From an uncultured Pseudomonadota bacterium (GTDB lineage: Bacteria > Pseudomonadota > Gammaproteobacteria > Steroidobacterales > Steroidobacteraceae), in assembly GCA_903938365.1 (NCBI GenBank), contig CAJACZ010000021.1:1-37879 (forward strand): a stretch of 37,879 nucleotides of DNA, read 5' to 3'. The position numbers were made by a program, and so were the translations under genes. Below are positions 5,598-26,690 of this stretch, in pieces. Numbering within the stretch: position 1 is the stretch's first letter; each line of letters opens with the position of its first letter. Under the pieces are notes generated by a model. It was given only the letters and a program-made list of their open reading frames with translations. It was not told the DNA's origin and did no database searches.

Positions 5598-5626
5598 TCA
5601 CCGACCGGTCGGCTCCTGCGCCATGA
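5456..5626 (+). CDS. Doubtful small ORF resembling a helix-turn-helix (HTH_17/excisionase-like) fragment
   Basis: A 56-codon ORF beginning MSERVVRRKVARGEIDGAIE. The pattern 'S-E-R-x-V-R-R-x-V-A-R-G-E-I' resembles the recognition helix of excisionase/MerR-like HTH_17 domains, and a later 'NTW' could match their wing. It overlaps the 3' end of the racemase gene by 29 bases on the opposite strand and has no clear ribosome-binding site. It may be a remnant of a mobile element or a chance ORF. Confidence 0.2.
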   Translation: MSERVVRRKVARGEIDGAIEFRTKAANTWTPTAGLARFAEGVLLQAGLTDRSAPAP

Positions 5627-6347
5627 CGGGGTCCGCGCGTTGACGCGCGCCCGCGTGACGTATGCAGGCGTGCGCCAGCGCCCTGTTCGCATCGATCATG
5701 GGCACGTGCGGCTGAAGACCGCGTACCAGGAGCGGCAGTTCCGTACAGGCCAACAGGACTGCATCAGCGCCACGGGCGACAACATGCTCAACCCCATGAC
5801 TGACAGCCCGGACGGCCTCAGGCCATCTGCCCGCCTTCGCATGCGCGATCGCGCCTGATACCGCCTCGTCCTGCACCGACCGATGCGGCAGGAGCGGGAT
5901 GTATCCCGCCCGGAGCAGCCGGGATTGATAGAAGCCGGAAGCGATCGTTCCAGCGGTTGCCATGATTGCGACCTGTCCGCGTCGGACTTCAACCCCTGCG
6001 AGCGCTTCGATGGCCGTATCGGCGATGTGTATCACCGGAAGGCACGAGGCGGCGCGGATAACGTCATACCAATGATGAGCCGTGTTGCAGGCGATGCTGA
6101 TGTAGTCGGCGCCCGCTTGGCGCAATCCGCGGGCTCCGGCGGCGAGCAGGGGTGCGGGCGAGGCGCCGCCTCCGACGAGCGACGCGGTGCGGTCCGGGAT
6201 CTGCGGGAGGTTCCAGACGATGATCGGCAGGTGCTGCTGGTCGGTGTTGGCGTCCGTCAGCTCGACGATCTTCTGCAGCACATCCAAGGTGGCGCTCGGG
6301 CCCATCCCGCCGAGCAGGCCAAGCCTCTTCAGCCTGACCTGGGTCAT
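5598..6347 (-). CDS. Aspartate/glutamate-type amino-acid racemase
   Basis: 249 residues, the usual length of the cofactor-independent Asp/Glu racemase superfamily. The N-terminus has LGLLGGMGPSAT, the family's opening motif. The two catalytic cysteines are in ACNTAHHW (Cys87) and ACTELPLL (Cys201), the pair that deprotonates and reprotonates the alpha carbon from opposite faces. It is the last gene of the eight-gene minus-strand operon, joined by an ATGA overlap to the M81-ligase fusion gene. In this context it probably converts a D-amino acid released from a peptide (D-Asp, D-Glu or a methylated form) into the L-form for central metabolism. The racemase family is sure; substrate and pathway are inferred. 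Hydantoin racemases and maleate isomerases share the fold, but the GGMGP motif favours the amino-acid racemase branch. Confidence 0.9.
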   Translation of the reverse strand: MTQVRLKRLGLLGGMGPSATLDVLQKIVELTDANTDQQHLPIIVWNLPQIPDRTASLVGGGASPAPLLAAGARGLRQAGADYISIACNTAHHWYDVIRAASCLPVIHIADTAIEALAGVEVRRGQVAIMATAGTIASGFYQSRLLRAGYIPLLPHRSVQDEAVSGAIAHAKAGRWPEAVRAVSHGVEHVVARGADAVLLACTELPLLVRGLQPHVPMIDANRALAHACIRHAGARQRADPVMAQEPTGR

Positions 6348-9340
6348 GGATCCGCCGACAGCTTCGACAGGAGCGCCTTCACGTTGACCTTGCCGATCGC
6401 GAGACGCGGCATGGAGTCCATGAACACCAGCCTCTTCGGGATCTTGTAGTTCGCCAGGCGGCCGCGCAAGCGCCCGAGCAGCGTGTCCGCATCACGACCG
6501 TCTCTCGAGGCGACCACGAACGCCACCGGGACGTGTCCCCACAACGGATCTTCGACACCGACGACGCATGCGTCGAGGACCTCCGGGAGTTCGAGCAACG
6601 CCGCTTCGATCTCGGTCGGGCTCACGTTGTATCCGCCGCTCTTGAACACACGATGCACCCGTCCTGTCAGACGCAGGGCCCCGGAACGGTCGAGCGTCCC
6701 GAGATCCCCGGTGAGAAGCCAGCCGTTCCGGCCCACGGCCTTGGCAGTCGCAGCAGCATCTCCCCAGTAACTGTTGAACCGGAACGGCGAGAGAATCTCG
6801 ACCTCCCCGATGGCGCCGAACTCGCCTTCAAGGGGACGCACCCGGACCAGGTAAGGCGGGACCGGCCGCCCGACTGTCTGCGCAAGCTCGGTTTCCGTCG
6901 CGTCCAAGGGGGTGAATGTCACGGATCCCACGGTCTCCGTCTGGCCGTAGGAGGTCGCAAGAGACGGTGCCAACCTGCGCAGACGTTTCACCAACGCGCT
7001 CGACGCATGCGCGCCACCCCAGAAGATGAGCCTCAGCGAGGACAGCTTTGCGGCGTCGAACCCAGGGTGATCGAGCAGCATCGTAAACATGCTGGGGACC
7101 TGTCCCAACACGGTGATCCCCTCTCTCTGGATCACATCGAGCATCGCTGGAGGGTCGAAGCGCGCCATGCAGACCAGCGTTCCGCCGCCCACGATCGTGA
7201 ACGCGGCGAGATCCCCCACACAGCCGATATGGTTGATTGGCAGGTTGTCCAGGACACGGAGCGGGTCGCACCCCCACTCTCGGACCTGCACCTCGCTCGC
7301 CCCGGTCAACGCCCACTGCGAGATCAAGGCGCCCTTGGGCGTGCCTGTCGACCCCGAAGTGAACACGAGCAGACAGGGCTCTCGCGGATCGACCGAGACG
7401 CAGCGTGCCGCGACGGACGCTTCATCGATCCTTTCCGCGCACGACAGGAAGCTCTCGAGACTGTCACATCCCGGGACGGATCGATCACCCAGGGCAATCA
7501 CCGTGATGGCTGGGCTGGTCCGCCGCATCCAGTCGGCGACTTCGGCACCCGCGATTGAGACGTCGGCGAATACGAGCCGTGGCGTCACGGTCTCCACGAG
7601 GCGATCAAGCTCGTGAGGCGTGTACCGGGGGTTGAGTCCGACCCATATGCCGCCGATCGCAGAGGTCGCGAGGAACGACGACAGGAACTGCACGCCCGGC
7701 GCGGCCAGCATGGCGATGCGGTCTCCCGGCGCGACCCCGGCATGGATCAAGGCGGCCGACCACCGGGCCACCATCGCGGCGAGCTCCGCCCAGCTCAGGC
7801 GCACGCTGCCGTCCACGATCGCGAGCGACGTCGGCCGTTCCGTCGCCCAGTGGTCGAGCCAGTCGCGCAGCGACCGCCGAGGGACACCGGGATCGAGCGG
7901 CCAAAGCGGGCCGCGCAGATTGCGATACCGGAGCCGCCGGAAGTCCGAATGCAAGAGGCCCCCGCCACGGGCATAGACGATCTCGGCCGCACAGGGCGCG
8001 AACCCGGCCGCGAAATGCTGTGCCGACTTGACCGCGATGATCCGTGCCCTGAGCGGATCGACCCCGACCGACCCGAAGAGATCGGGGCCATACGCCTGGT
8101 CACGCACCGAAGTGATCACCGCCGTCAGGTTGCCGATGCGCAGGGCACACGTTGGTCCGAGCGGGCTTCGGGTGCCTGCCCAGGTCTGCGACGCATCCTC
8201 GACGACTTTCACCACAAGCGCCTCGATGCTCCGCTCGCCCTCGAGTGCGACGCCGCGGAGGACCACCTCGACCCGTGCACCGGGTCCCGCGCGGGATGCT
8301 CGTCGTACCAGGTCGGGATCGCAGACTGGACCCATGCAGGACTCAACCCCGGAATCGATGAGTAACGAGGCTAGCGACCAATCGTCACCGGGAGCGCCAC
8401 TTCCCGGGTTGTCGTCCACATCGGCGATGACGACCGGGGCATGGTTGGCTTTCGCGCCATGCTCGACGGCGGCGCGCAGCTCGACAGTAGGCTGGGTAGC
8501 TTGATCTCGGATCGAGATCGCCGCCTCTCCGACGAGCGCAGCGACCGCCGCGGCGCGCGCGTCATCCTCTGCCAGCGCGAGGACTTTGGTACCGACATCC
8601 CGCACGTCGCCGAAGGGGAAGCCGTGCACGAGCGAGATCGATACGATCCCGGGCTCGCGCTCGAGCGCGCAGATCCAGTCGACGATTCCCCTCATCGGCT
8701 CACGGTTCGTGTGGAACCGCGCAATCGTCCTGCAGTCGAATACGCGCTTCGCGGGCCGCCAACCGGTCGCCGCGCAACGATCAAGCAGTGACACAAGCTC
8801 GCGAGCACGCTCGAGGAAATCGGTGTGAGGGTATTCCTTGAACGCGATCAGCACATCGGCGGCCGCCACCATGGCATCGCTCAGGTGGGCGTGCAGGTCG
8901 AATTCGATCCCGATCGGCACGTCAGGCCCCACGAGCCGCCGTACCCGCCCCAACAGGTCGCCCTCGCAATCGTCGATCGACTCGGAGCACATCGCTCCGT
9001 GCAGCGAGAGGACCACGGCATCGACCGGCAGCGCAGCCGTAAGCTGCCCCACGATCTCGTCGCGCAGGAGTTCGTAGGTCCGGTCTTCCACCCGTCCCGC
9101 CGGGAATGCGAAGGCGTAGGTTCCCTCTACCAGCTCGATCTCGCCTGCCTGTGCCCGTTCTCGCAGCACATACCAGGGTGCGGATATCTCGGTCAGGGCA
9201 GCCGGGAACTCGCCCGGCCGGCAGAGGAAGGCGCCCGCGAAGTCCTCGAGACGGACAGGTCGACCGATGAAGGTGTTGGACTCGGTCCCGAGCCCGGCTG
9301 TGAAAAACCGACGACGGACCCTCTCATGCTCTCTGGGCAC
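6344..9340 (-). CDS. Fusion of M81 (MlrC-type) metallopeptidase and AMP-forming acyl-CoA ligase
   Basis: A 998-residue two-enzyme protein. Residues 1 to about 485 are an M81/MlrC peptidase: TESNTF (20-24), LHGAM (His114), EFDLHAH (Asp148, His150, His152), YPHTD (His172) and DDNPGSGAPGDD near 309-320. These include the Asp/His residues expected to bind zinc. Residues about 488-998 are a complete class I adenylate-forming ligase: FTSGSTGTPKG (660-670), SYGQTE (797-802), TGDLG (877-881), GRVHRVFKSGGYNVSP (893-908) and the C-terminal AIGKVNVK with the adenylation lysine. There is no stop or frameshift between the halves. The GTG start at 9340 is chosen because AAGGAGG (9354-9348) lies 7 bases upstream; this overlaps the MFS gene by 17 bases. 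Inference: the peptidase releases an acid that the second half activates to a CoA thioester. Confidence 0.92.
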   Translation of the reverse strand: MPREHERVRRRFFTAGLGTESNTFIGRPVRLEDFAGAFLCRPGEFPAALTEISAPWYVLRERAQAGEIELVEGTYAFAFPAGRVEDRTYELLRDEIVGQLTAALPVDAVVLSLHGAMCSESIDDCEGDLLGRVRRLVGPDVPIGIEFDLHAHLSDAMVAAADVLIAFKEYPHTDFLERARELVSLLDRCAATGWRPAKRVFDCRTIARFHTNREPMRGIVDWICALEREPGIVSISLVHGFPFGDVRDVGTKVLALAEDDARAAAVAALVGEAAISIRDQATQPTVELRAAVEHGAKANHAPVVIADVDDNPGSGAPGDDWSLASLLIDSGVESCMGPVCDPDLVRRASRAGPGARVEVVLRGVALEGERSIEALVVKVVEDASQTWAGTRSPLGPTCALRIGNLTAVITSVRDQAYGPDLFGSVGVDPLRARIIAVKSAQHFAAGFAPCAAEIVYARGGGLLHSDFRRLRYRNLRGPLWPLDPGVPRRSLRDWLDHWATERPTSLAIVDGSVRLSWAELAAMVARWSAALIHAGVAPGDRIAMLAAPGVQFLSSFLATSAIGGIWVGLNPRYTPHELDRLVETVTPRLVFADVSIAGAEVADWMRRTSPAITVIALGDRSVPGCDSLESFLSCAERIDEASVAARCVSVDPREPCLLVFTSGSTGTPKGALISQWALTGASEVQVREWGCDPLRVLDNLPINHIGCVGDLAAFTIVGGGTLVCMARFDPPAMLDVIQREGITVLGQVPSMFTMLLDHPGFDAAKLSSLRLIFWGGAHASSALVKRLRRLAPSLATSYGQTETVGSVTFTPLDATETELAQTVGRPVPPYLVRVRPLEGEFGAIGEVEILSPFRFNSYWGDAAATAKAVGRNGWLLTGDLGTLDRSGALRLTGRVHRVFKSGGYNVSPTEIEAALLELPEVLDACVVGVEDPLWGHVPVAFVVASRDGRDADTLLGRLRGRLANYKIPKRLVFMDSMPRLAIGKVNVKALLSKLSADP

Positions 9341-10676
9341 TCTCGCTCCTCCTTGCCAAAGCGCGCACCACCGTCGCATGTCGCCGGCGCGTCAGGGGGA
9401 AGCGCCACGCCAGCGCCGCTGCGGCCATGAGCAGGACGGCGGGCAAGACGAGACTGATGATCTTGAAGGCAGATGCCCCCGTCGCCGACGGGATCTTCGA
9501 GTCGAATCCCGACCATCCGACGAGCAGCAGACCGGCGCCTCCGCCTACGGTGGAGGTGCCCTTCGTCAGCAACGAGACGAACGAGTGGAAGTTCGCGGCC
9601 CGGTTGGCTCCGCTGCGGAGCATCTCGTAGTCGACGATGTCGCCGAGGAGTGCGCCGGGCGCGACATAGATGACGGAGCCGCCCAAGGCGCGCAGCGCGA
9701 TCGCGACCAGCGCCAGGTCCTTGTCTGGGCCGGTCACGGGCATCATCAACAGGATGCCGAACGCGGCCACCTGGATCACGCTGCCAAGCGCCCATGCGAC
9801 ATGCTTGCTCCAGCGCGTGATGGCGAGATACCAGAGCGGGAGCGACGCGAGCGTGACTACCGCATCGACCAGCAGGAACCCGGCGAAGCTCTGCCCGAAG
9901 GGCATGACTGAAGTCAGCAGGAGAAAGACAAGTCCGTAGAAGACGCCTTGGCCAAGACCCGTCAGGGCGAAGAGACAGAGGAACCAGCACAGCGGCCGGT
10001 TCCGGGCCACGGAAACGAGGACCGACCAAGGCGTCATCGGTGGAGAGCGTCCCCCGGCTGGGGCGGGCGCGCGCCACAGGGCCGACGCGGTGCACAGGGG
10101 AAGCACGATGACCAGCACCCACGCCACCTGCGCGAGCACCTCCGCGCTGTAGACCCCCGAGGACGCAGTCAGGAAGGGCATCAGCGCGAACGTCAGCGTG
10201 CCCGCTCCGAACGCGACAGCCAGCGCCGTCGAGATGAGGGAGCGGGTCCGGTAGTCGCTGGAGAGTTCCGTGCCCCAGGCCTTGTGGGGCGTCTCGATCA
10301 ACGAGACGCCGAGATAGAACAGGAGCAGCGTCAGAAGGTACGCGAGGGGCGAGGTGTCGGTGTCCGGCATGTACAGCATCGGCGTCGCTGCGCACATGAT
10401 CAGCGTACCGGCTACAAGCCACGGCTTGCGGTGCCCCCATCGCGTGTTGGCGGCATCCGACAGGTAGCCGATGGCGGGGTCGACGAGCGCGTCGAACGCG
10501 CGGGCCACCATCAAGAGCGTGCCGATGGTGACCAGGTCCAGCGAGGTGTGCGTTGCGTAAAACCCGGGCAGGATGACGTAGACCGGAAACACGACCAGGG
10601 CGAGCGGCAGCGAAGGCGATGCGTAGGCGGCCAGCTGCCATCGGGAGAGCGAGGGACGATCTTTACCTTGCATCAT
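9324..10676 (-). CDS. MFS transporter, GPH/MelB-like
   Basis: 450 residues with about 12 hydrophobic segments. The first-half motif DALVDPAIGYLSDAANTRWG, followed by HRKPW, is the MelB/GPH-type loop 2-3 signature (Asp-Pro-x-x-G-x-x-S-D, then R-x-G-x-R-K-P). Members are inner-membrane cation symporters, mostly for sugars or uronides, but many catabolic operons use them for other compounds. It starts inside the stop of the serine hydrolase gene (ATGATG, 4-base overlap) and runs 17 bases into the M81-ligase gene. By position it would import the operon's substrate or its first breakdown product, the role proposed for MlrD in microcystin degraders. That role is inferred from context; sequence relation to MlrD was not tested. 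Confidence 0.88.
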   Translation of the reverse strand: MMQGKDRPSLSRWQLAAYASPSLPLALVVFPVYVILPGFYATHTSLDLVTIGTLLMVARAFDALVDPAIGYLSDAANTRWGHRKPWLVAGTLIMCAATPMLYMPDTDTSPLAYLLTLLLFYLGVSLIETPHKAWGTELSSDYRTRSLISTALAVAFGAGTLTFALMPFLTASSGVYSAEVLAQVAWVLVIVLPLCTASALWRAPAPAGGRSPPMTPWSVLVSVARNRPLCWFLCLFALTGLGQGVFYGLVFLLLTSVMPFGQSFAGFLLVDAVVTLASLPLWYLAITRWSKHVAWALGSVIQVAAFGILLMMPVTGPDKDLALVAIALRALGGSVIYVAPGALLGDIVDYEMLRSGANRAANFHSFVSLLTKGTSTVGGGAGLLLVGWSGFDSKIPSATGASAFKIISLVLPAVLLMAAAALAWRFPLTRRRHATVVRALARRSESAQRA

Positions 10677-12082
10677 CGGAAGCGGACAAGCTCGCCGAAA
10701 TAGGTGACATCGAGAGCTTCGGCGTCGTCTTTGCGCACGACGCTCAAGCGGTACTCGGGGTCCAGCGGCTGTCGGGCCATGGCGGGGTGCTCAAACACGA
10801 GCCGATGATGGCGGCCCCCCGTTTCGTGTACGACGGCCGCGAGCGCCGGCGCATCGTGAGGCAGGAACAGCCATCCACGAGGGGATTCACGGATCTCGAC
10901 CGTGCCGGTGACAGGGTTGGAGTACATCCCCGGCGAAAGGGCCGCGACAGTCTGATGATGCTGATTGTCCACGGTTTGCGGGCCGGTAAACCGATCCCGC
11001 TCGGCCCGGCGGCGCGCCTCGGCCTCCAGGATATCGATCCACCGCGTCGTCGGAATGCGGCGCAGAGCGGAGAGGAGGTCCCACGATAATCCCACGAGAC
11101 GGGCAGACTCCGTGCTCGCCATCAGCATCAGGCCGCAACGCTCTTCCGGAACGACGAGCATCTGATGCCGCCAACCTCGGCCGGCCCCTCCATGATGTAA
11201 CAGCCGTGTCCCACGCGAGTCGCTCATGAACAACCCGCACCCGTAAGCGCTGGAGTCGGCTGGCGGACACAGCGGCATCTCGTCCGGCGCGATGACTGTG
11301 TGGGGATGCCCGAGCCCGGACAGTCCGGTCCGACCCGGACCTTCATTCAATCTCTCGGCGAGATGCCCGAGCCAGGCAAGCGCGTCCCTCGGTGAGAGAT
11401 GGACACGGGCGGACCCCTCGGAATTAGGACCCGTCAGGTCTTCGACGCTTACCGGCGATCCTCCGACATCGATCGCGGGCGCGTGGGCGCCGTCCGGGAC
11501 ACGCACGCCGAATCCTGCCGAAAAGCTCTCGCGGAGCCCGAGCGGCGCGAAGAACATCGTCTCGAGCAATTCGTTGATGCTGCGTCCGGTGGCCCGCTCG
11601 AGCGCCAACCCGAGCGCGATGTAGCCCAGATTGGAATAGGTGAATCCGGTCTCCGGCTGCCGGATGAGCGGCATGAAGCGCGCGCGCGCTAACCGCTCGG
11701 TCTTGGGTAGTCGCTGGTCAAAGCCCCATTCGGCGACGCCCTCCCGGCCGAGGCCGGTGCGCATCGTCATGAGCGTCTTGAGGGTACAGGACCCCTCGGC
11801 CCCGCCGGGCAGGAACTCCGGGAGCAATCCGCCGCATGGGCCGTGGAGATTGAGGAGACCTTCGTCGGCCAACTGGAGCGCAGCGGCGGCCACAAAGTGC
11901 TTCGAGAGCGAACAGACATGGAAGGGCGTCGTGTCGTCCGGAGTCCGGCAGCCGCTGCGTGCCGAGGGTGGCACGATGATGATCGTCGCCTCCGCACCGG
12001 CCAGGGCGACCAGCGCCAGCCCGCCATGGACGAAGCTGTCAGCGCCCTCGTGCAGCAAGTCCTCGATCTGCGAGAGCAGCAT
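10673..12082 (-). CDS. Class C beta-lactamase-fold serine hydrolase (MlrB-like by class)
   Basis: 469 residues. The three motifs of serine beta-lactamase/D-aminopeptidase-type hydrolases are present: SLSK (nucleophile Ser58, Lys61), YSN (149-151) and HGG (297-299). After the catalytic domain comes an extra C-terminal beta-rich domain of about 100 residues, seen in many peptidase-like members. No signal peptide is evident at the chosen ATG (12082, 2 bases after the preceding stop); the longer upstream reading is antisense-like arginine-rich sequence and is rejected. The family includes esterases, D-amino-acid peptidases and MlrB, which cuts linearised microcystin. In this operon a role in cleaving a linear peptide is likely but inferred. 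It overlaps the transporter gene by 4 bases. Confidence 0.88.
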   Translation of the reverse strand: MLLSQIEDLLHEGADSFVHGGLALVALAGAEATIIIVPPSARSGCRTPDDTTPFHVCSLSKHFVAAAALQLADEGLLNLHGPCGGLLPEFLPGGAEGSCTLKTLMTMRTGLGREGVAEWGFDQRLPKTERLARARFMPLIRQPETGFTYSNLGYIALGLALERATGRSINELLETMFFAPLGLRESFSAGFGVRVPDGAHAPAIDVGGSPVSVEDLTGPNSEGSARVHLSPRDALAWLGHLAERLNEGPGRTGLSGLGHPHTVIAPDEMPLCPPADSSAYGCGLFMSDSRGTRLLHHGGAGRGWRHQMLVVPEERCGLMLMASTESARLVGLSWDLLSALRRIPTTRWIDILEAEARRRAERDRFTGPQTVDNQHHQTVAALSPGMYSNPVTGTVEIRESPRGWLFLPHDAPALAAVVHETGGRHHRLVFEHPAMARQPLDPEYRLSVVRKDDAEALDVTYFGELVRFR

Positions 12083-12084
12083 CT

Positions 12085-12570
12085 TCAGGGCGGCTTGTCC
12101 GGTCTCTTGCGGATGAACAGTCCGATCCATTCGGCGGTCATGGCTGGACGAGTGCTGCCCTCGATCTCCATCGTGTTGAGGGTCCGCACGAGGATCTGCA
12201 GATCGGGACGCTCTTCGAGCGACAGCAACCGGCAACGCATCCGGATCCTCGTCCCGACCGGGACGGGATTGATCCATCGGACCCGGTCGAGGCCGTAGTT
12301 GAGCGCGTAAACGACATCCTTCGGCCACATCCCTACATGATGCGAGCAGTAGGTCAGCATCGAGAGCGTCCAGAAGCCGAAGGCGATGGTGCCGCCATAC
12401 GGACCTTCCCGCTTCGCGCGTTCCGGATCGACGTGCAGCCAGTCCGAATCACGGGTGGACGTGCTGAACTGGTCGATTGCGTCCTGCTCGACGGGGATCC
12501 ACTCGGTGACACCAATCTCGGAACCGACCAGTGCGTAGAGGTCCGCCAAGGTCCTGGTGGACGTGCTCAC
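12085..12570 (-). CDS. MaoC-like (R)-specific enoyl-CoA hydratase
   Basis: 161 residues, the single hot-dog-fold length of the MaoC/NodN family. The core reads DAIDQFSTSTRDSDWLHVDP with the expected Asp and His (D-x-x-W-x-H-x-D) of the hydratase active site, followed by GPYGGTIAFGFWTLSML. In most relatives I know the last segment reads A-H-G-F; here the His is Phe, so substrate or activity may differ. The GTG start at 12570 overlaps the CPBP stop as GTGA; a longer upstream reading is antisense-type sequence. It would hydrate a trans-2-enoyl-CoA, which fits the acyl-CoA ligase in the same operon and points to breakdown of a fatty-acyl or polyketide part of the substrate. Cytosolic. Confidence 0.85.
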   Translation of the reverse strand: MSTSTRTLADLYALVGSEIGVTEWIPVEQDAIDQFSTSTRDSDWLHVDPERAKREGPYGGTIAFGFWTLSMLTYCSHHVGMWPKDVVYALNYGLDRVRWINPVPVGTRIRMRCRLLSLEERPDLQILVRTLNTMEIEGSTRPAMTAEWIGLFIRKRPDKPP

Positions 12571-13388
12571 GAAGATCCTCCTTCCGTCGGCCGTTTTCCA
12601 CCCCCCAAGGACGGTCCGCAAAAGAGCAAGACCAGCGCCCCCAGGACGATGGTGACCGCCGGGAACACTTCGATCCCTGCGCGAGGGACCGCATTGAACA
12701 TCATGTGCGGCACGATACCGGCCCACAGCACGTTGCCGTTCGTCTTGATGAAGATCACGGTCATGAAGACCGAGAACGCGACCACGTTGAGGATGTACGG
12801 CCCAAGCGAGAAGGTCGACTGCGACAGGCTGCCCACGAAAAAAGCGGGCAGGTGCCAGACCGCCCACGCGAGCCCGAGGACCACCGAAGCGGTGCGCGGG
12901 GTGGAAATCTCGAGCAGCCTCGGCAATGCGTAACCTCTCCAGCCCAGCTCCTCGCCGAGCGCACCGCCGTCCTTGAGCAGGTGTCCGCCCAACAAGACCG
13001 CGGGGAGCGCTACGGTCCACGGGGAAAGGTCGAGGACGCTCAGCTCCCCGTTCAGGATCTTCATCGAGGACACGACTATCAGCCAGAGCATCGGATATCC
13101 GAGCAACGCGGCGGCAGCCCAGATGGGCGGCACCGGGAACGGCAGCAGGCGTCGCAACAGGCCGGAGACACCCGCGAGGCCCTGTTGCCACAGGGTGAGC
13201 GCCAGTGCCGCCATGGAGGGTGCCGCGACGGCGAGGTAGAAGCTGGGACTGCCGGGTCGCATCGGGCCGAGGTTATCCGTAGCCCACCCGCCCGCGAGGA
13301 TGTAGGCGGCGAGGACCGCCCAGGTCACCGCGTACGAGGCGCCGAAGAACAGCAGCAATTGCCGCAACGGATCCGAAGGTGAAGTCAC
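12567..13388 (-). CDS. CPBP family intramembrane glutamic endopeptidase (MlrA-like by class)
   Basis: 273 residues with about seven or eight membrane segments. The three CPBP/Abi motifs are intact: GEELGWR (Glu146, Glu147, Arg151), AWAVWHLP (His179) and HMMFN (His228, Asn232). These residues bind and activate the water for peptide-bond cleavage within the membrane. MlrA, which opens the microcystin ring, belongs to this superfamily and uses the same Glu/His/HxxxN set. The start is taken as GTG 13388, which overlaps the ACT gene stop as GTGA like other joins in this operon; an ATG at 13424 would add 12 residues overlapping that gene. Other CPBP proteins process prenylated proteins or confer bacteriocin immunity, so the MlrA-like role depends on context. 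Confidence 0.9.
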   Translation of the reverse strand: MTSPSDPLRQLLLFFGASYAVTWAVLAAYILAGGWATDNLGPMRPGSPSFYLAVAAPSMAALALTLWQQGLAGVSGLLRRLLPFPVPPIWAAAALLGYPMLWLIVVSSMKILNGELSVLDLSPWTVALPAVLLGGHLLKDGGALGEELGWRGYALPRLLEISTPRTASVVLGLAWAVWHLPAFFVGSLSQSTFSLGPYILNVVAFSVFMTVIFIKTNGNVLWAGIVPHMMFNAVPRAGIEVFPAVTIVLGALVLLFCGPSLGGGKRPTEGGSS

Positions 13389-13687
13389 AGTATGTCGATC
13401 CTTGCGAAGCCCGACGCGCTGCATCCGAACAACGAGACATCGCGGATGCTGGTCACCCGCCAGAGATTCCGTACGATGCGCGCTGCGGTTTCGGCGTCAG
13501 CATATTCAAGTTCGATCGCCACCTCGACGACACCTTCCCCATGCTGCAGCATCGTCGCGGCGCGCGGCAAGCGGTTGGTCACGAGCACGGCGTTCGCCAC
13601 CTTCGCGAGAAGGTCCGGATCGGCGTCGGCGACCACCAGCAACTGGTATGTGGTCGGCCGGTCGTGTCGCGACGCCTCACCAGCCAT
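13385..13687 (-). CDS. Small ACT-like domain protein
   Basis: 100 residues. The predicted order of elements is beta-alpha-beta-beta-alpha-beta: a strand at TYQLLVVADADP, helix DLLAKVANAVLVTN, strands around RAATMLQHG and VVEVAIELEYAD, helix AETAARIVRNLWRV, and strand IRDVSLFG. This is the ACT fold, a small-molecule (often amino-acid) sensing module, and the size fits a free-standing ACT protein such as acetolactate-synthase small subunits. It begins 6 bases after the receptor stop and overlaps the protease gene start by 4 bases, so it is a true operon member. Its role is unknown; sensing of a released amino acid or a structural partner are both possible. Confidence 0.65.
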   Translation of the reverse strand: MAGEASRHDRPTTYQLLVVADADPDLLAKVANAVLVTNRLPRAATMLQHGEGVVEVAIELEYADAETAARIVRNLWRVTSIRDVSLFGCSASGFARIDIL

Positions 13688-13693
13688 CGACCG

Positions 13694-15811
13694 CTAGAAC
13701 GACCAACGGAGGTCCAGCCCGTAGGTCCGCGGCGGCGAAGTCGTCACCGCGAACAGCAACGGGGCGACCGAGAACCCGCCGAGCGTGACCCGCTCATCCG
13801 TGAGGTTCCGGCCCCAGGCCGAGATCGTCCAACCCTGAGTCGACTCGAAGGCAGCCCGCAGATTGACCTGTTCGTGCGCCTCCTGGCGGAAGAGCGCCGT
13901 GTTCGCCGCATCGACGAAGTTCTCGGCACGGTAGACCACTTCCGGGATGAACGAGAGGGTGCCGGCCGTGCCGATGGCGCGGTCGTACTCGAGGTTGATC
14001 GCCGCCGTCACCCGCGGAGCGCGCGGCAAGCGCTTCCCGGAGTTCGCTTCGAAGCTCGTGTATTGGGCGTCCACGAGACCGAGCGATGCGTTCAGGGCGA
14101 TCGATTCCGTGGCCCGTGCGGAGACCTGCAGTTCCGCGCCATAACTGCGCGCGCGCGCCGCGTTGCTGATGAAGAACCCGGCGCCGCTTTGGGCTGACTG
14201 CTGGATGTCCTTGTAGTCGAGGTAGAAGAGGCTCGTGTCGATCCGTACCCGCCCGCTCGGCGCGCCCTTGTAGCCGACTTCATAGCTGTTCAGGTATTCC
14301 GGGGCGAACTCGATGCGGGCCGGGTTCGAACTCGGCCCCGCATTGAAGCCGCCCGACTTGAAGCCGCGCGCGAGGCGCATGTACAGGGTGTGGGCTTCGG
14401 CCGGTTTGTAGGTGAGCGTCACAGTGGGCGACCACTCGCCACCGTCGACCTCCTTCGAGAACGCCGGGACCACACCGAATCCCGGTATGGGCAGCGTTGC
14501 TGTCTGCACATAATCGAGGTCCTTCGACTCGGAGGTGTAGCGCAGGCCCGCTTCGGCGGTCAGCTTCGCGGTGATCGGATACTCGATTGAGGCGAAGCCG
14601 GCGAGGCTGCGGGTGCTGAGGTCGGCGATGGCGTTCACCCGGTTCGTCCGTCCGGGACCCAGGAAGCCGGGACCGAGTTCGAGGATGGTGTCCTGCAGGT
14701 AACTCCGTTCAAAGTAGAAGGCGCCGACGACCCACTTGAGGTCGTCGCTGCTGCCGCCGGAGAGGCGGATTTCCTGTGTGAACTGGTCTTCGTCGGTGTC
14801 GAGGCCGGTCGCGAGGATGGGGCGGGAAGTGAAGTCGCGATCGGTGATGAACTCGGTGTCGCGCTTCCGGTAGGCCGAGATCGCGGTGAGCGTGGTGGTG
14901 GCGAAGGACTGGTCCGCCCGTAGCGAGACGCCGCGCATCCGCCGTTCGCTGTTGCAGGGACCGTCCCAGGCGGAATCGTCGGGGTTGGTGTTCCCGGTGT
15001 ACAGCTGGCCGCCGACCAGGCGGAACATGTTGTCGCAGGTGTCGTCGCGCGAGTCATCGACGCTCAGCAGCAGTTCGAGGCTGTCGTTGGGTCGCGCGAG
15101 CAGGTGCGCGCGGACGCTGCGGCCGTTCTCGTCGTTGCCACGCACGCCCGGCGCCGCGAGGTTCCGCAGGTAGCCGTCACGCGAACGGTCGACGAACGAG
15201 ACCCGCGCCATCAGTTTGTCGGACATCAGTGGCACGTTGAGGGTGACGCCGTATTGGCGCAGGCCGAAGTTGCCGAAGGAGGCGTCGAGCGCACCACCGA
15301 ACTCGGGTCCCGGCTTGCGGGTCACGATGTTGACGGCGCCGGCCACGGTGTTCCGCCCAAACAGCGTGCCCTGCGGCCCGCGGAGGATCTGGAAGGACTC
15401 GAGGTCAAACTGGCGCTGGCTCATCGAGGATTCGTCGCCGACGAACACCTCGTCGATGTAGAGACCGACGCTGGTGTCGCTGCCTGAGCCCGCCGAGGTG
15501 AGACCCCGGATGCTGAACTCGCTGTTCGATCCGTTGCTGTCGTTGAACGACACGCCCGGGAAGTAGGCGCCGAGATCCCGGTTGTTCCGCACGCCGCGGC
15601 GCTCGAGTTGGTCGCCGGCCAGCGCCGAGACCGACATCGGGACATTCAGCGCGCTTTCGGCCCGCTTCCGCGCGGTGATGACGACCTCTTCCAGGGCAGG
15701 CGACGACTGGGAGGGCTCGGCCGCCATCGCCGGAAGCCCGGGCAGGGCAGCCAAGGCGCCCACGACTGCGAAAAGGCGTCCATTTGACAAAATATTGTTG
15801 CGGATGGCCAT
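13694..15811 (-). CDS. TonB-dependent outer-membrane receptor (first gene of the peptide-catabolic operon)
   Basis: 705 residues from ATG 15811, with a signal peptide (LFAVVGALAALPGLPAMAA) and then LEEVVITARKRAES, the usual TonB-box/start of the plug domain in this receptor class. The plug has SIRGLTSAGSGSDTSVGLYI and the conserved ILRGPQGTLFGRNTVAGAVN. A barrel of repeated amphipathic strands ends in YGLDLRWSF with the terminal Phe of outer-membrane proteins. It imports a bulky ligand using TonB energy. Because it leads an operon of peptidases and acyl-CoA enzymes rather than iron genes, the ligand is probably the operon's peptide substrate, which would be too large for porins. A longer upstream reading is rejected: it crosses the operator region and the TetR start. 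Confidence 0.93.
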   Translation of the reverse strand: MAIRNNILSNGRLFAVVGALAALPGLPAMAAEPSQSSPALEEVVITARKRAESALNVPMSVSALAGDQLERRGVRNNRDLGAYFPGVSFNDSNGSNSEFSIRGLTSAGSGSDTSVGLYIDEVFVGDESSMSQRQFDLESFQILRGPQGTLFGRNTVAGAVNIVTRKPGPEFGGALDASFGNFGLRQYGVTLNVPLMSDKLMARVSFVDRSRDGYLRNLAAPGVRGNDENGRSVRAHLLARPNDSLELLLSVDDSRDDTCDNMFRLVGGQLYTGNTNPDDSAWDGPCNSERRMRGVSLRADQSFATTTLTAISAYRKRDTEFITDRDFTSRPILATGLDTDEDQFTQEIRLSGGSSDDLKWVVGAFYFERSYLQDTILELGPGFLGPGRTNRVNAIADLSTRSLAGFASIEYPITAKLTAEAGLRYTSESKDLDYVQTATLPIPGFGVVPAFSKEVDGGEWSPTVTLTYKPAEAHTLYMRLARGFKSGGFNAGPSSNPARIEFAPEYLNSYEVGYKGAPSGRVRIDTSLFYLDYKDIQQSAQSGAGFFISNAARARSYGAELQVSARATESIALNASLGLVDAQYTSFEANSGKRLPRAPRVTAAINLEYDRAIGTAGTLSFIPEVVYRAENFVDAANTALFRQEAHEQVNLRAAFESTQGWTISAWGRNLTDERVTLGGFSVAPLLFAVTTSPPRTYGLDLRWSF

Positions 15812-15832
15812 CGGTTTGCCTTCGGTTGGTTG

Positions 15833-15860
15833 AAGTAGAACTTGAATACAACTTCTACTT
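15833..15860. promoter_or_regulatory. Palindromic operator-like site 1 for the TetR regulator
   Basis: A 28-base near-palindrome: AAGTAGAA (15833-15840) and TTCTACTT (15853-15860) are perfect reverse complements, and the inner TTG/CAA pair extends the arms to 12 bases with a single C/C mismatch around a 4-base centre. It sits between the divergent receptor and TetR genes and overlaps the receptor promoter, the expected location for TetR autoregulation and operon repression. Confidence 0.65.
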
Positions 15861-15871
15861 TTGGATGTCAA
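15843..15871 (-). promoter_or_regulatory. Promoter of the receptor-led operon
   Basis: On the minus strand a perfect -35 box TTGACA (15871-15866) is followed by a 17-base spacer and a weak -10 box TATTCA (15848-15843, only the first three bases match consensus). It lies about 35-60 bases upstream of the receptor ATG. The palindromic operator covers the spacer and -10, which suits repression by the divergent TetR protein. Not experimentally known. Confidence 0.5.
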
Positions 15872-15891
15872 CTGGAATCGATCGGTCTCCG

Positions 15892-15909
15892 GAACTTGAA
15901 GTTGAGTTC
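15892..15909. promoter_or_regulatory. Operator-like site 2
   Basis: GAACTTGAAGTTGAGTTC shares 13 of 18 positions with the core of site 1 (15838-15855), and contains the small palindrome AACTT-G-AAGTT. It lies just upstream of the TetR start, near a weak promoter-like pair (TTGAAG at 15896, GACAAT at 15918). A second binding site for the same regulator is plausible. Confidence 0.45.
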
Positions 15910-15929
15910 GATTTCGGGACAATGCGGCG

Positions 15930-16664
15930 ATGAAATCCGCTTCGAAACCGGCACCGCGCGCAGTCGCGCGGGTCCGTCTCAATGCCGTCCGCACGAAGCC
16001 GGCCGCTCCGAAAACCAAGCGCGGGCGGGAGACCCGTGAACGCCTGAAGACGGCGTTGATCGAGTTGCTCCAGGAACGCGCCTATCAGGACATCCGGCTG
16101 GAGGACATCACGGACCGGGCGGGTTCGCGGGTGAGCCTCTTCTACCATTACTTCCAGAGCAAGGCCGACATCGCGCAGGAAGTCCTGACGGACATGCTCG
16201 AGGCGTTCAAGCTGGAGGTCGGGCGGCGACAAAAGGATGCCGATCCCCTCGCCACGATCCACTATGCCAACCAACGCATGGTCGCGCTGTACGCCAACAA
16301 CCCCGGCGCGATGCGCTGCCTCGTCGATTCGAAGGACGACTCGGCGCCGTTCGCCCAGACCTGGCGCTCCATCACGCTCGACTGGAATCGGCGGATCGCC
16401 GCCAGCATCGCCCGCCAGTTCCCTGACGCGCTGCCGCGCAACGACGCCTACCTGGCGCTGGCTTTCGCCCTCTCGGGCATGGTGGACGACTTCCTGTTCG
16501 AGTACTTCGTCAACGAACAGGCCGCCTTGCGACAGGCATATCCGACCCATGACGCTGTGGCCGCATTCTTGACGACGCTCTGGTGCCGAGCCCTCTATCT
16601 CAGGAATCCCGGCGACATCACGAGCCCAGGCTTCACCGAGGTCAGCGGCGACCCCGGTCTCTGA
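15930..16664 (+). CDS. TetR family transcriptional regulator
   Basis: 244 residues. After a basic, Ala/Pro-rich N-terminal extension of about 28 residues comes the TetR DNA-binding domain (TRERLKTALIELLQERAYQDI, then LEDITDRAGSRVSLFYHYF, then QSKADI). The helix-turn-helix is followed by the characteristic F-Y-x-Y-F. The remaining helical part (about 95-225) would bind the inducer. It is divergent from the receptor-led operon with 118 bases between them holding two related palindromic sites, so it most likely represses that operon and itself until a substrate-derived ligand is present. The ATG at 15930 lies very close to the only promoter-like pair seen, so the mRNA may be nearly leaderless, or the true start may be slightly downstream. 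Confidence 0.92.
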   Translation: MKSASKPAPRAVARVRLNAVRTKPAAPKTKRGRETRERLKTALIELLQERAYQDIRLEDITDRAGSRVSLFYHYFQSKADIAQEVLTDMLEAFKLEVGRRQKDADPLATIHYANQRMVALYANNPGAMRCLVDSKDDSAPFAQTWRSITLDWNRRIAASIARQFPDALPRNDAYLALAFALSGMVDDFLFEYFVNEQAALRQAYPTHDAVAAFLTTLWCRALYLRNPGDITSPGFTEVSGDPGL

Positions 16665-16976: not shown

Positions 16977-17969
16977 CTACAGGCGTGCGAGATGCGCGGC
17001 GAAACCTGCCGCATCGATGTTCGAACCGCACACCACGACCCCCACACGCCGCCCGCTGAGCTCCCCGCGCAGTCGGTACACCAACGCGGCCACCGCCGCG
17101 GCGCCGGCGGGCTCGACGGCCAGCTTCATCTCGCGGAACAGCAATCCCATCGCCGCGCGGATCTCCGCGTCCGACACCTTGACGAGCCGGTCCACGCTCG
17201 CGCGACACATCGCGTAGCCGTACGGCAGGGCCATCGGCGGAGCGAGACTGTCCGCGATCGTGTCCACACGATCGATACGCTGCGCTGTTCCGGCTGCGAA
17301 GCTGCGATGCATGGTGTCGGCGCCTTCCGGTTCGACACCGATGACCTCGCAGCGCGGCTGCAGGAGCTTGAGTGCCCGGCCTGCACCGCCGGCCAGTCCA
17401 CCCCCACCTATCGCGATGATGACGGCATCGAGCCCCGGCGCCTGTCGGGCGAACTCCAAGCCCAACGACGCCGTTCCGAGTGTGGTCTGCACGCCATCGA
17501 ACGGATGGATGAACTGCCGACCCTCAATCGCAGCGATCTCTTCGGCCATCGCGAACCCCGTGGGACCGTCCACCGCCGAGACGACCTCCGCGCCCCAGCT
17601 GCGGGCGGCGGCGACGCGCGCCGGATTCGCGTTAGCCTGCATGACGACCTTCGCGGAGATGCCGAACTGGGCCGCACCCCAGGCGACGGCGATGGCGTGA
17701 TTGCCGGCGCTCATGGCCGTCACCCCGCGTCGACGCTCCTCGTCGCTCAATGACAAGAGGTTCGCGATGACACCCCGTGCCTTGAAGGTGCCCGAACTCT
17801 GGAAAAGCTCCAGTTTCAGGAGGACCTGTGTCTCGGGCGTCATGAGCGAATCGAGTTCCCGTCCATGCCATCGATGCACGGGGGTCTGCTGGATGTAAGG
17901 CGCGATCGCGGCGGCGGTCCGCTCGATCTGTTCCGGTGACAGCAGTTCAAAAGAGTGCTCGATGCCCAT
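16977..17969 (-). CDS. Fold-type II PLP ammonia-lyase (threonine/serine/hydroxyaspartate dehydratase-like)
   Basis: 330 residues from ATG 17969; an in-frame ATG at 18014 would add 15 residues, but a TATAGT -10-like box (18008-18003) overlaps that start and favours the shorter form. Motifs are FQSSGTFKARG with the PLP lysine (Lys63), SAGNHA for cofactor/substrate carboxylate binding, and the phosphate-gripping GGGGLAGG. Length and layout match catabolic threonine dehydratases, serine racemases and hydroxyaspartate ammonia-lyases without a regulatory ACT domain. The reaction would be elimination of ammonia from a beta-hydroxy amino acid to give a 2-oxo acid. It lies convergent to the broken cyclodeaminase gene; a link to the nearby peptide operon (downstream of released Ser/Thr or 3-hydroxy-Asp) is only suggested by position. 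Confidence 0.88.
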   Translation of the reverse strand: MGIEHSFELLSPEQIERTAAAIAPYIQQTPVHRWHGRELDSLMTPETQVLLKLELFQSSGTFKARGVIANLLSLSDEERRRGVTAMSAGNHAIAVAWGAAQFGISAKVVMQANANPARVAAARSWGAEVVSAVDGPTGFAMAEEIAAIEGRQFIHPFDGVQTTLGTASLGLEFARQAPGLDAVIIAIGGGGLAGGAGRALKLLQPRCEVIGVEPEGADTMHRSFAAGTAQRIDRVDTIADSLAPPMALPYGYAMCRASVDRLVKVSDAEIRAAMGLLFREMKLAVEPAGAAAVAALVYRLRGELSGRRVGVVVCGSNIDAAGFAAHLARL

Positions 17970-18030
17970 AACCGGTCCAGATCCCTGACAAAAAACGGCG
18001 TCACTATAATTCATCCCCGTCGCGCGATTC

Positions 18031-18916: not shown

Positions 18917-20926
18917 ATGACGCCATCCCCTCCCGGAGAAACCGCGCAAACACCCCATAAACTTTGGAGTTGGCTGGCATTGTTAGGGCCCTACGCGCCA
19001 CTGGGTATGCTTTATCTCATCGGCCTTCCGTTGCTCTCGCTTTCGCGCGCGGGGCTGATGGCATGGCAAGCCGAGCGCGTTTCTGCGACGGGCGTCTGGG
19101 TGGAAATGCTGCTGCAGGGAGTGCGCGTTGACATCATTCAACTGGGTCTGCTGAGCATCCCGCTCCTGATTCTGGCGCCGATAGTTGCCACAGTCCGTGG
19201 CTGGCAGATCTGGAAACGCATCAGCTATTTCTGGGTCATTGCTTCAGCGGCGCTCCTCGTATTGCTTGAGGCGGCTTCCCCGGCCTTCATTGCTGAATAC
19301 GATACGCGCCCCAACCGGCTGTTTATTGAGTATCTGAAGTATCCCGATGAGGTGCTCTCGATGCTCTGGCGGGGTTTTCGACTGCATCTGTTTGCGGGGG
19401 TGACAGCCACGATCCTTGCGATGGCTGGTCTCGCAAAACTTCTTAGCCCGTGGCTAAGGCAGGAACGCACCTGGAAGAACGTCCGCTTCTTTGTGACCTG
19501 GCCCATCGTTGTGCTGGTGTGTCTGATATCCATCCGTTCGACTCTTGATCATCGGCCGGCTAACCCGGCTTTGTTCGCCCTGACAGGCGACCCGATGGTT
19601 AACACGTTGATTCTCAATTCCGCCTGGTCGGTTGCCCACGCTATCTATGGCTTGAAACACGAAAACCGCTCAAGCGACATTTACGGAGAAATGTCCGAAA
19701 AAGGCATTCTCGACCAATTAGCCCATACTCGTGAAAAGGGCCATGAATCACGGCCATTGCTCAATTCTCCTGATATCCCGACCCTGATTGAGCAAAAGGC
19801 TACGATCCGCCGTCAGAAGCCGCTGAACCTGGTCATCATTCTGGAAGAAAGCCTGGGGGCAACATTTGTCGAATCCCTGGGAGGCGTCCCGGTGACGCCG
19901 GAACTGGAAAAGCTCAAGACGCAGGGCTGGTGGTTTGAGCAGTTGTACGCGACCGGCACTCGCTCAGTACGCGGCATCGAAGCAGTGGTTACAGGCTTTC
20001 CTCCATCACCCGCACAAGCCACCGTCAAACTGTCACTGGCTCAACGCAATTTCGCCAACCTGGCGCAACTGCTCGGGAAGCAGGGTTACGAATCCGAATT
20101 CATCTATGGTGGTGAATCCCATTTCGACAATATGCGGGGTTTCTTTCTCGGCAACGGATTCGACCACGTTACTGATGGCAAGGACTTCGAGTCTCCTGTT
20201 TTCAGGGGGAGTTGGGGCGTTTCGGACGAAGACCTGTTCAATAAAGCACTTGAGCGACTGACCGAGAAACACTCAGCAGGAAAATCGAGCTTCACGCTGA
20301 TATTCACCTCGACCAACCACTCGCCCTTCGAGTTTCCGGATGGTCGTATTTCTCTGTATGACCAGGAAAAAAATACGGACAATAACGCCGTCAAGTACAC
20401 CGACTATGCGCTTGGGCGCTTCATGGAGCAGGCGCGCGCCAGCAGTTACTGGAAAGACACGATCTTTGTGGTAGTGGCGGATCATGACATCCGTGTGCGC
20501 GGGGACAGTCTCGTGCCGATCGAGCGATTCCATATCCCCGGCTTGATCATGGGTGCTGATATCCAACCTCGGCGGATTAAAACTGTTGCCAGTCAGATTG
20601 ATCTGCCGCCAACGCTGCTTTCCTTGCTGGGCATCGATTCCAGGCATCCCATGATTGGGAGGGATCTCACCAGGGAACCCGAGGGTTTGCCAGGAAGGGC
20701 AATGATGCAATATGAACAGCATTACGCCTGGATGGAAGGGCAGCAGGTGGTGGTGTTACGCCCGGGGAAACCGCCGGCTCATGGCACTTACGATCCAGTT
20801 GCCAAGCGGTTGACGAATGTCCCGCTCCCTCGCGCGGACCAGGGTGGCATTGAGCAACGCGCGCTGGCACATGTGCTCCTTCCCGCCTGGCTGTACCGCG
20901 AACAGCGCTATCGCCTTCCAGATTAG
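18917..20926 (+). CDS. Membrane-anchored LtaS/MdoB-type sulfatase (phosphoglycerol/phosphoethanolamine transferase-like)
   Basis: 669 residues. The first about 210 hold five hydrophobic segments; the rest is a periplasmic sulfatase-fold domain. Key residues fit the LtaS/MdoB group: ILEES (Glu310, metal), GTRSVRG with the likely catalytic Thr348, STNHSPFEFP, and VVADHDIR (the Asp-His metal pair). The family moves phosphoglycerol or phosphoethanolamine from a lipid onto a glycan, lipoteichoic acid or osmoregulated glucan; the acceptor here is unknown. Sampled stretches are about 53% GC, well below the neighbours, with many AAA/GAA/ATT codons. Together with the IS91-type remnant just upstream this indicates horizontal gain. 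The 226-base spacer before it contains no gene I recognise. The start has only a weak ribosome site. Confidence 0.88.
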   Translation: MTPSPPGETAQTPHKLWSWLALLGPYAPLGMLYLIGLPLLSLSRAGLMAWQAERVSATGVWVEMLLQGVRVDIIQLGLLSIPLLILAPIVATVRGWQIWKRISYFWVIASAALLVLLEAASPAFIAEYDTRPNRLFIEYLKYPDEVLSMLWRGFRLHLFAGVTATILAMAGLAKLLSPWLRQERTWKNVRFFVTWPIVVLVCLISIRSTLDHRPANPALFALTGDPMVNTLILNSAWSVAHAIYGLKHENRSSDIYGEMSEKGILDQLAHTREKGHESRPLLNSPDIPTLIEQKATIRRQKPLNLVIILEESLGATFVESLGGVPVTPELEKLKTQGWWFEQLYATGTRSVRGIEAVVTGFPPSPAQATVKLSLAQRNFANLAQLLGKQGYESEFIYGGESHFDNMRGFFLGNGFDHVTDGKDFESPVFRGSWGVSDEDLFNKALERLTEKHSAGKSSFTLIFTSTNHSPFEFPDGRISLYDQEKNTDNNAVKYTDYALGRFMEQARASSYWKDTIFVVVADHDIRVRGDSLVPIERFHIPGLIMGADIQPRRIKTVASQIDLPPTLLSLLGIDSRHPMIGRDLTREPEGLPGRAMMQYEQHYAWMEGQQVVVLRPGKPPAHGTYDPVAKRLTNVPLPRADQGGIEQRALAHVLLPAWLYREQRYRLPD

Positions 20927-21727: not shown

Positions 21728-22102
21728 CGCATTGACTCTCGGCCAGGGTCTTGTCGTTCTTCAAGCGCTGCATGGTGAGCTCGAACATCCGGGGCCTGTC
21801 GCGCGCGGTGTTGCGTGCGGTCCATAAGGGTCTGGTTGACTGATTGGGTAACCTGCTCAACGGGGTTGCAGCGACTGGCTTTCCGGTGGCGTCGGATGCA
21901 CCAGAGCGTAAGGCCGCAAAGCACTGATAATAAGAGATAAAGTTGGCCCGGGCGTTGCTGTTTCCGGTCCGCCATAAATGCCCTTAATGACGCGCATCAG
22001 ATAATGTGCTGACGCCCGTCGCTCGTATGGCCGACGATGGCGCCAATCCAACACCCTGCCAGCGGTGTGGGCGTCACCCGAATCCAAGAGGAGATCAGGC
22101 TC
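21728..22102. other. Spacer upstream of the second TonB-dependent receptor
   Basis: 375 bases with no gene recognised. An AT-richer stretch around 21926-21946 (actgataataagagataaag) is the likeliest promoter zone for the receptor gene, and AAGAGGAG just before 22103 provides its ribosome site. Short open readings on both strands lack family features. Confidence 0.35.
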
Positions 22103-26346: not shown

Positions 26347-26690
26347 GCCTGCGCATGCCGGGCATCATGTGGCCGGCCCAGCGATGCATGCGCTTCCCTG
26401 TTTGCGCCGTTGCCGTGTGGGGCCATCCCGAAGGTGTTGGCGGTCGGGTCCGGCGGTACTGATGTCATGGCGGCGATGAACGCGTCGAACAGCATCGTTT
26501 CGTTGGCATCGTCGCCATTGAACGCGAAGGAGATCAGGCTGCGCAGGCCGCCACCGGCCTGCATGGAGCGGTGCACGCAGTAGGCCGCAGCGCGAGGCTT
26601 CCCGTATGCTGCGCGCGTGGGGGTGGGCTGTTCTGGCGGGGACTGGGCGGCCCCGCCCACGAATGACCGGTGGGTCGGAACGGGGGCACC
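26347..26690. other. Spacer between the FAD protein and the molybdoenzyme
   Basis: 344 bases without a recognised gene. The minus strand is open across most of it and one stretch (GGLRSLISFAFNGDDANETM) looks protein-like, but no family, start or end could be assigned. The plus-strand molybdoenzyme gene has only GGGGGC before its ATG. Confidence 0.3.

Follow-up and report, generated by a model that had tools for sequence, protein, structure and literature searches.

One gene cluster, mlr, is well known for the degradation of microcystin, and its origin and later steps are at issue. The product of mlrC is an M81 metallopeptidase (PDB 7YLQ), for which the release of Adda has been described with the tetrapeptide and linear microcystin as substrates (PMC4810221). 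Its residue E70 is presented as the proposed general base, and the E70A variant as less active (PMC9982164). The genes mlrE and mlrF are assigned to a dipeptidase and a D-aminoacylase (PMC4520899). The genes for the degradation of Adda are called not elucidated in PMC6563193, and a route from Adda through phenylacetate to phenylacetyl-CoA is proposed in PMC9144602 and PMC8068134; in the account given in PMC9144602, the enzymes of this route are unannotated and strain C-1 is described as having no phenylacetyl-CoA ligase gene.

A true MlrC was found by searching 396 genomes of one order (that of genome G060; the locus is labelled Sphingomonadales) with the MlrC equivalog model NF041767, which returned a single protein over the cut-off, at 1172 bits. 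The contig number and coordinates of this MlrC agree with those given for Novosphingobium MD-1 in PMC7082461. Within 20 kb, the locus (L126) carries mlrE, mlrB, mlrD, mlrA and mlrC, followed by genes for an MFS transporter, an acyl-CoA ligase, a TonB-dependent receptor and a TetR-family regulator, all four at most 7 kb from mlrC (the transporter and the regulator were recognized by eye). The mlrE gene encodes an M19 dipeptidase, and the published primers match at 0 and 1 mismatches. The GC content is 52–62% through the mlr genes to the TetR gene and steps to 63–68% near 17 kb. The MFS, ligase, receptor and TetR genes (L126:10584-16463) share the low-GC island of mlr, and the ligase encoded there (L126 13438-11882) is a candidate for forming Adda-CoA or phenylacetyl-CoA. 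No MlrC was found in the PLSDB plasmids at 60% identity or more.

The window analyzed here (the whole stretch of 37,879 nucleotides, from an uncultured bacterium whose gammaproteobacterial affiliation was given by a 13-row rpoB tree) encodes the same CPBP, S12, M81 and MFS classes as the mlr island (mlrF, E, B, D, A, C), with an M81 of the same clade. As in L126, a TonB receptor, an acyl-CoA ligase and a TetR regulator are encoded nearby. The first-pass annotation had supposed that the mlr cluster lacks receptor and ligase; L126, the one mlr island examined, has both, and they are therefore not peculiar to the window. Conversely, an operonic MaoC gene, a racemase gene and a fusion of M81 to the ligase distinguish the window from L126, the gene order differs, as the same annotation had noted, and the dipeptidase and D-aminoacylase of mlrE and mlrF are not among the operon genes. 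The operon is real, has one known sister and is mlr-like at the M81 step, but it does not belong to the mlr cluster. We read it, with a probability of about 0.55, as an operon that is controlled by TetR and serves to take up and break down an N-acylated, peptide-like natural product containing acidic and/or D residues.

Organization of the operon

The minus-strand genes from 15811 down to 5598 form a translationally coupled operon, each junction being either an overlap or a gap of 2 to 6 nt. Together with the divergent TetR gene, they gave Pfam matches over the cut-off, except for an ORF of 100 aa. A coupled minus-strand operon with CPBP, S12, M81 and MFS genes, a TonB receptor, a racemase, an acyl-CoA ligase and a divergent TetR had been proposed in the first-pass annotation, and all of these were recovered; its enoyl-CoA hydratase proved to be a hydratase of the MaoC type, and its gene list held for the genes it named and missed the 100-aa ORF.

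The TetR-family regulator (15930–16664, plus strand; TetR_N, 34.5 bits) is 60% identical to a TetR in the equivalent position of the sister locus, L017. Between this gene and the receptor gene, an inverted repeat with 12-bp arms (15833–15860, no strand assigned; arms 92% complementary) is a candidate TetR operator, and it is the sole such site in the 3.59-Mb genome at up to 3 mismatches. The matching stretch of L017 showed no inverted repeat, and a promoter scan gave no match. The TonB-dependent receptor (13694–15811, minus strand, as for all the operon genes below) has 705 aa, plug and barrel domains and, by eye, a signal-like N-terminus. In the receptor tree, the window and L017 receptors (57% identical) had no supported tie to those of the mlr island and of two further loci, L060 and L056.

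The 100-aa ORF (13385–13687) starts 6 nt past the receptor stop, and its end overlaps the likely CPBP start. It had no match in Pfam or NCBIfam. A single-sequence structure model (pLDDT 75) gave phosphoglycerate dehydrogenases (E 2e-5) and the ACT domains of Rel and IlvN as best PDB matches, and the protein is predicted to be a stand-alone ACT-like (ferredoxin-like) domain. Coupled to CPBP, such a protein could serve as an amino-acid sensor. In L017, there is no space for this gene between receptor and CPBP.

The CPBP/Rce1-like membrane protease (12567–13388; Rce1-like, 52.8 bits) has a frame open from ATG 13424, and GTG 13388 is the likelier start. Its gene overlaps by 4 nt with that of the MaoC-type hydratase (12085–12570; PF01575, 52 bits), which is 56–59% identical to its counterparts in L016 and L017. 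The S12 beta-lactamase-fold serine hydrolase (10673–12082; PF00144, 127.9 bits) has its likely start, ATG 12082, 2 nt past the MaoC stop; SxxK, YSN and HGG motifs were recognized in an alignment with MlrB, and no signal sequence was seen by eye. A 4-nt overlap leads to the MFS_2 (GPH-type) transporter (9324–10676; PF13347, 183 bits), whose gene in turn overlaps the gene of the M81–ligase fusion (6344–9379), and the latter overlaps by 4 nt with the racemase gene (5598–6347).

The racemase is of the Asp/Glu type (PF01177, 154 bits), and the sole NCBIfam equivalog over its cut-off was the cysteate racemase CuyB (NF052483, 232.6 bits, cut-off 190), a model that may be broad. Cys87 and Cys201, which we take to be catalytic, lie in the usual motifs. 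The window alone has a racemase among the MlrC-clade loci (1/7), and no relative was found in the genomes G037 and G061, the latter incomplete. Beyond TetR, in both the window and L017, lies a gene for a PLP dehydratase of the Ser/Thr/3-hydroxy-Asp type (16977–18014, minus strand; PF00291; 52% identity to L017), whose 25 best NCBIfam matches were all below the cut-off. Farther along the window, a sulfatase-fold protein (18917–20926) was nearest to phosphoglycerol transferases, below the cut-off, and a second TonB receptor (22037–24574, plus strand) is followed by an FAD-dependent protein (24697–26346) and a molybdopterin oxidoreductase (26670–28808).

The M81–ligase fusion and its relation to MlrC

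The fusion joins an M81 metallopeptidase (PF07364 and MlrC_C; aa 24–487) to an AMP-forming acyl-CoA ligase (AMP-binding and AMP-binding_C; aa 508–997) in a single frame of 1011 aa, with a likely start at GTG 9340 behind AAGGAGG. The joint lies at natural domain ends, and the natural C-terminus of M81 continues directly into the ligase, which suggests that the freed acid passes to CoA activation. As the first-pass annotation had pointed out, the fusion is an addition relative to the mlr cluster, where M81 stands unfused; it was seen once, in the window, and no report of an M81–ligase fusion was found in the open-access literature searched. An assembly artefact, by which a stop codon was lost from an otherwise real operon, would agree with this single occurrence, with the joint at natural domain ends, with the unfused M81 of L017 and with the in-frame GTG codons at aa 522 and 526, either of which could start a separate ligase. 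The frame is nevertheless uninterrupted, and from aa 481 to 521, a stretch spanning the natural ligase start, it contains no in-frame ATG, GTG or TTG; an artefact is improbable.

The M81 domain was found in one well-supported clade with true MlrC, apart from other M81 proteins (support of 99/96 in a 52-row tree, 99/97 in a 69-row tree and 91 in a quick 120-row tree). The 52 rows were hand-picked from the 120 so that the clade was kept and the rest were spread, and the 69-row tree contains 17 more. The clade comprises eight proteins (the window, L017, L016, G037, G052, MlrC, L060 and L056) from five lineages only. The window domain is 42% identical to the MlrC of G240 and scored 376.3 bits against NF041767, below the cut-off of 999.

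In MlrC numbering, the residues E39, N41, E70, F96, H133, D167, H169, H191, D332, D341 and S392 are kept, and these include all Zn ligands (E39, D167, H169 and H191) and the proposed general base, E70 (E64 in the numbering of the window protein). The window departs from MlrC at W59 (C), F67 (A), Q468 (H), S485 (G) and R492 (L). When three long distant rows had been removed, Glu at position 70 was counted in 8/8 clade members versus 3/109 other M81 proteins; His occupied position 468 in 109/109 outsiders, and Gln was found there only in MlrC, L060 and L056. Because the Zn ligands and E70 are kept while these five positions are changed, the domain looks MlrC-like in chemistry, with a pocket unlike that of MlrC. 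The differing pocket residues speak against microcystin, which appears unlikely as the substrate of the window.

In the window's order, 13/296 genomes gave 16 M81 matches at 1e-110, and besides the window only G037 and G052 fell in the MlrC clade of the 69-row tree, from which L184, L188 and L190 are absent. The order of G061 gave a match in 1/28 genomes, G061 itself. In the order of G1432, 12 matches at 1e-168 came from 10/399 genomes, with G1432 at 818 bits and the other eleven at 566–642; eight of these eleven are in the 69-row tree, none within the MlrC clade (L208, L209 and L214 are absent from the tree). Among 23 genomes of the window's genus, no M81 was found at E 1e-60, the sole match being a separate ligase.

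The other counterparts of the mlr proteins were analyzed by alignment and trees. A grouping of S12 with MlrB was rejected (AU p 0.0068, 19-row tree), leaving no MlrB ortholog in the window, and the transporter showed no significant similarity to MlrD (BLASTP E 0.51), being MFS_2 and not of the PTR2 type of MlrD. The CPBP protein shares the EELGWRG, WHLP and H...N motifs with MlrA and L017, and it is 34% identical to MlrA in a three-row alignment (29% by tblastn). In a 24-row tree, its nearest relatives were L017 and then L142, and it was not joined to MlrA; forcing the two together was not rejected (AU p 0.105), in a tree with many long branches and with L140 filling 36% of the columns. On the MlrB test, the MlrD comparison and the NF041767 score, a true mlr cluster was rejected. 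A divergent but genuine degradation cluster for microcystin or nodularin would account for the four common protein classes, for an M81 in the MlrC clade and for the CPBP identity to MlrA; set against the same tests, the p of 0.105 for CPBP and the pocket residues, it is highly improbable. The classes of MlrA to MlrD assigned in the first-pass annotation stood, as did an MlrC-clade M81 with its catalytic Glu, whereas a one-to-one correspondence with mlr did not, and neither a cyclic substrate nor microcystin found support.

In a survey of CPBP, matches were found in 10/321 genomes of the window's class at E 1e-15, its own included, and in 3/385 genomes of the class of G060 at 1e-22. No M81 was detected by tblastn in ten neighbourhoods (L145–L154, 8 to 20 kb) of the 12 other loci, and in three of the ten an S12 gene adjoins CPBP. 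These three (L145:7613-9801, L153:8035-10091 and L154:8923-11152), in which CPBP overlaps or lies beside S12, belong to one CPBP clade, and no M81 or TonB receptor was found in 19–20 kb around them; they represent a second recurring CPBP–S12 pair, and in L145 a ligase is also beside it.

Recurrence of the gene set

The fusion protein was used to scan 84,980 species genomes, which gave 289 M81-related places, and the best 80 were kept. Among these best 80 of 289, the whole gene set was found once, in L017, where TetR, TonB receptor, CPBP, MaoC, S12, MFS and M81 follow in the order of the window at 60, 57, 51, 60, 39, 49 and 53% identity. Since the order recurs, the gene set is more than a chance assembly. 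The two loci have in common these seven genes in one order and a ligase and a PLP dehydratase at the edges. In L017, M81 is unfused and followed by a GH38 gene, after which the ligase (38% identity) lies on the opposite strand, and no racemase or 100-aa gene was found in the locus. The L017 contig belongs to the MAG MED606, labelled Rickettsiales, and has 54% GC versus 33.8% at the rpoB locus of that MAG; it is therefore of unsure host, and probably misplaced there.

A looser relative of the set was found in the window's own order. In G037, a clade M81, S12, an M55 D-aminopeptidase, a TonB receptor, P450, MaoC and a window-clade ligase are encoded within 12 kb. The G037/G052 cluster (L100–L102) thus shares clade M81, S12, TonB receptor, MaoC and window-clade ligase with the window; a TRAP transporter, M55 and P450 are its own, and no CPBP or racemase was found in the stretches read. 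The stretch L100:4909-19303 contains a TRAP transporter, an MlrC-clade M81, a double-domain S12, an M55 D-aminopeptidase, an RpiR-type regulator, a TonB receptor, P450, MaoC and a ligase.

The operon might instead serve to scavenge D-amino-acid peptides or lipopeptides derived from cell walls or siderophores, the acyl tail going to beta-oxidation. This would fit the racemase of the operon, the M55 D-aminopeptidase of G037 and the PLP dehydratase and RidA-type gene beside L017. It would also fit the two best solved relatives of S12, a D-peptidase and a D-Ala-D-Ala carboxypeptidase. These S12 matches are weak, however (51 bits at best), no siderophore-synthesis gene was seen among the window proteins scanned with Pfam, and we consider this origin quite unlikely.

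To compare neighbourhoods, gene classes were counted within 8 kb of M81 at seven clade loci and 72 other M81 loci; L016 (less than 2 kb of flank) and 10/82 outsider loci with short flanks were left out. MlrC-clade loci are richer in TonB-receptor (6/7 versus 9/72), MaoC (4/7 versus 1/72) and S12 (5/7 versus 7/72) neighbours than other M81 loci, and the counts were 3/7 versus 0/72 for CPBP and 4/7 versus 7/72 for the ligase. Two of these counts flatter the case: in the mlr island, the MaoC counted belongs to the tail of a PaaZ-like gene that lies past the GC step, and the L101 ligase is not of the window's subfamily. In L100, which has a MaoC–ligase pair, the ligase lies just beyond 8 kb. When the window and the mlr island, the source of the queries for these classes, were removed, the TonB receptor (4/5, p 0.002), MaoC (2/5, p 0.010) and S12 (3/5, p 0.014) remained enriched, and CPBP (1/5, p 0.065) and ligase (2/5, p 0.10) were not significant. 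Similarity to the window or the MlrC model was the basis on which both sets of loci had been chosen, and the clade loci include close kin (G037 with G052, L060 with L056).

The window ligase was found in a clade of six rows (100/99) with the unfused L017 ligase, G016, G037, G052 and L075, and the ligase of the mlr island is outside this clade, in another subfamily. A MaoC gene is present in the locus of 6/6 of the clade ligases, and steroid/FadD3-type models were among the better NCBIfam matches of the window ligase, all below the cut-off. One further locus, L104, from the window's genus, has TonB receptor, TetR, MaoC, MFS and window-clade ligase without M81, S12 or CPBP, so that the acid part could have a source other than a peptide; this is the strongest counter-evidence to the acyl-peptide reading. 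The operon could then mainly serve to take up a carboxylic acid or its ester (steroid-, aromatic- or polyketide-like) and activate it with CoA, with the three hydrolases acting as esterases or amidases on conjugates and with no real peptide involved, and a carboxylesterase is indeed among the best solved relatives of S12. Yet a plain acid or ester would hardly account for CPBP, M81, the racemase and the PLP dehydratase, and L017 retains S12, CPBP and M81 at 39–53% identity. This explanation seems unlikely to us.

Proposed pathway and its bearing on Adda

For the N-acylated peptide-like product that we favour, the TonB receptor together with three hydrolases suggests a molecule that exceeds the size limit of porins and combines an acyl part with acidic or D residues. 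The receptor would carry the acyl-peptide through the outer membrane, and the MFS transporter would import the compound or its pieces; the CPBP protease, presumably in the inner membrane, and the S12 hydrolase, presumably cytoplasmic, would trim or open it. M81, by the Zn/Glu70 chemistry of MlrC, would cut the amide that links the acyl acid to the adjoining amino acid; the freed acid would be converted to its CoA thioester by the fused ligase. MaoC would hydrate the enoyl-CoA en route to beta-oxidation, and the racemase and the neighbouring PLP dehydratase may process the amino acids.

The most useful message of the window is the link between MlrC-clade M81 and CoA activation, since the fusion of an MlrC-clade protease with an acyl-CoA ligase hints at immediate activation of the released acid. 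We tentatively extend this, with rather more doubt than confidence, to MlrC-clade M81s in general, which would be TonB-coupled acyl-amidases passing the unusual acid that they release on to a CoA ligase; the window would be the fused form, a separately assembled mlr-type system for another acyl-peptide. The free carboxyl of Adda after MlrC would suit a ligase as the next step, and by the same logic the ligase beside mlrC becomes a candidate for activating Adda. Against an immediate activation of Adda, the published route first degrades Adda to phenylacetate, which the ligase beside mlrC could take as its substrate instead. The Glu70 signature, combined with a TonB/MaoC/S12 neighbourhood, may also offer a way to find related peptide degraders that are missed by mlrA PCR.

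Two lake MAG loci (L060:650-8330 and L056:3720-12968, one labelled Paucibacter toxinivorans) contain oligopeptide ABC genes, a TonB receptor and an M81 sister to MlrC that keeps W59, E70 and Q468. Both further encode a peptidase of the C26 type as well as a family-5 binding protein; the genes of L060 were assigned by Pfam, and those of L056 by eye and tblastn. An ECF sigma factor gene precedes the receptor in L060, and the TetR of L056 shares 47% identity with its counterpart in the mlr island. The TonB receptor of the mlr island groups as sister to those of L060/L056 (100/100), and the M81s do likewise; receptor and M81 therefore seem to travel together there. These loci are candidates for the route, so far unexplained, by which Paucibacter degrades microcystin without mlr.
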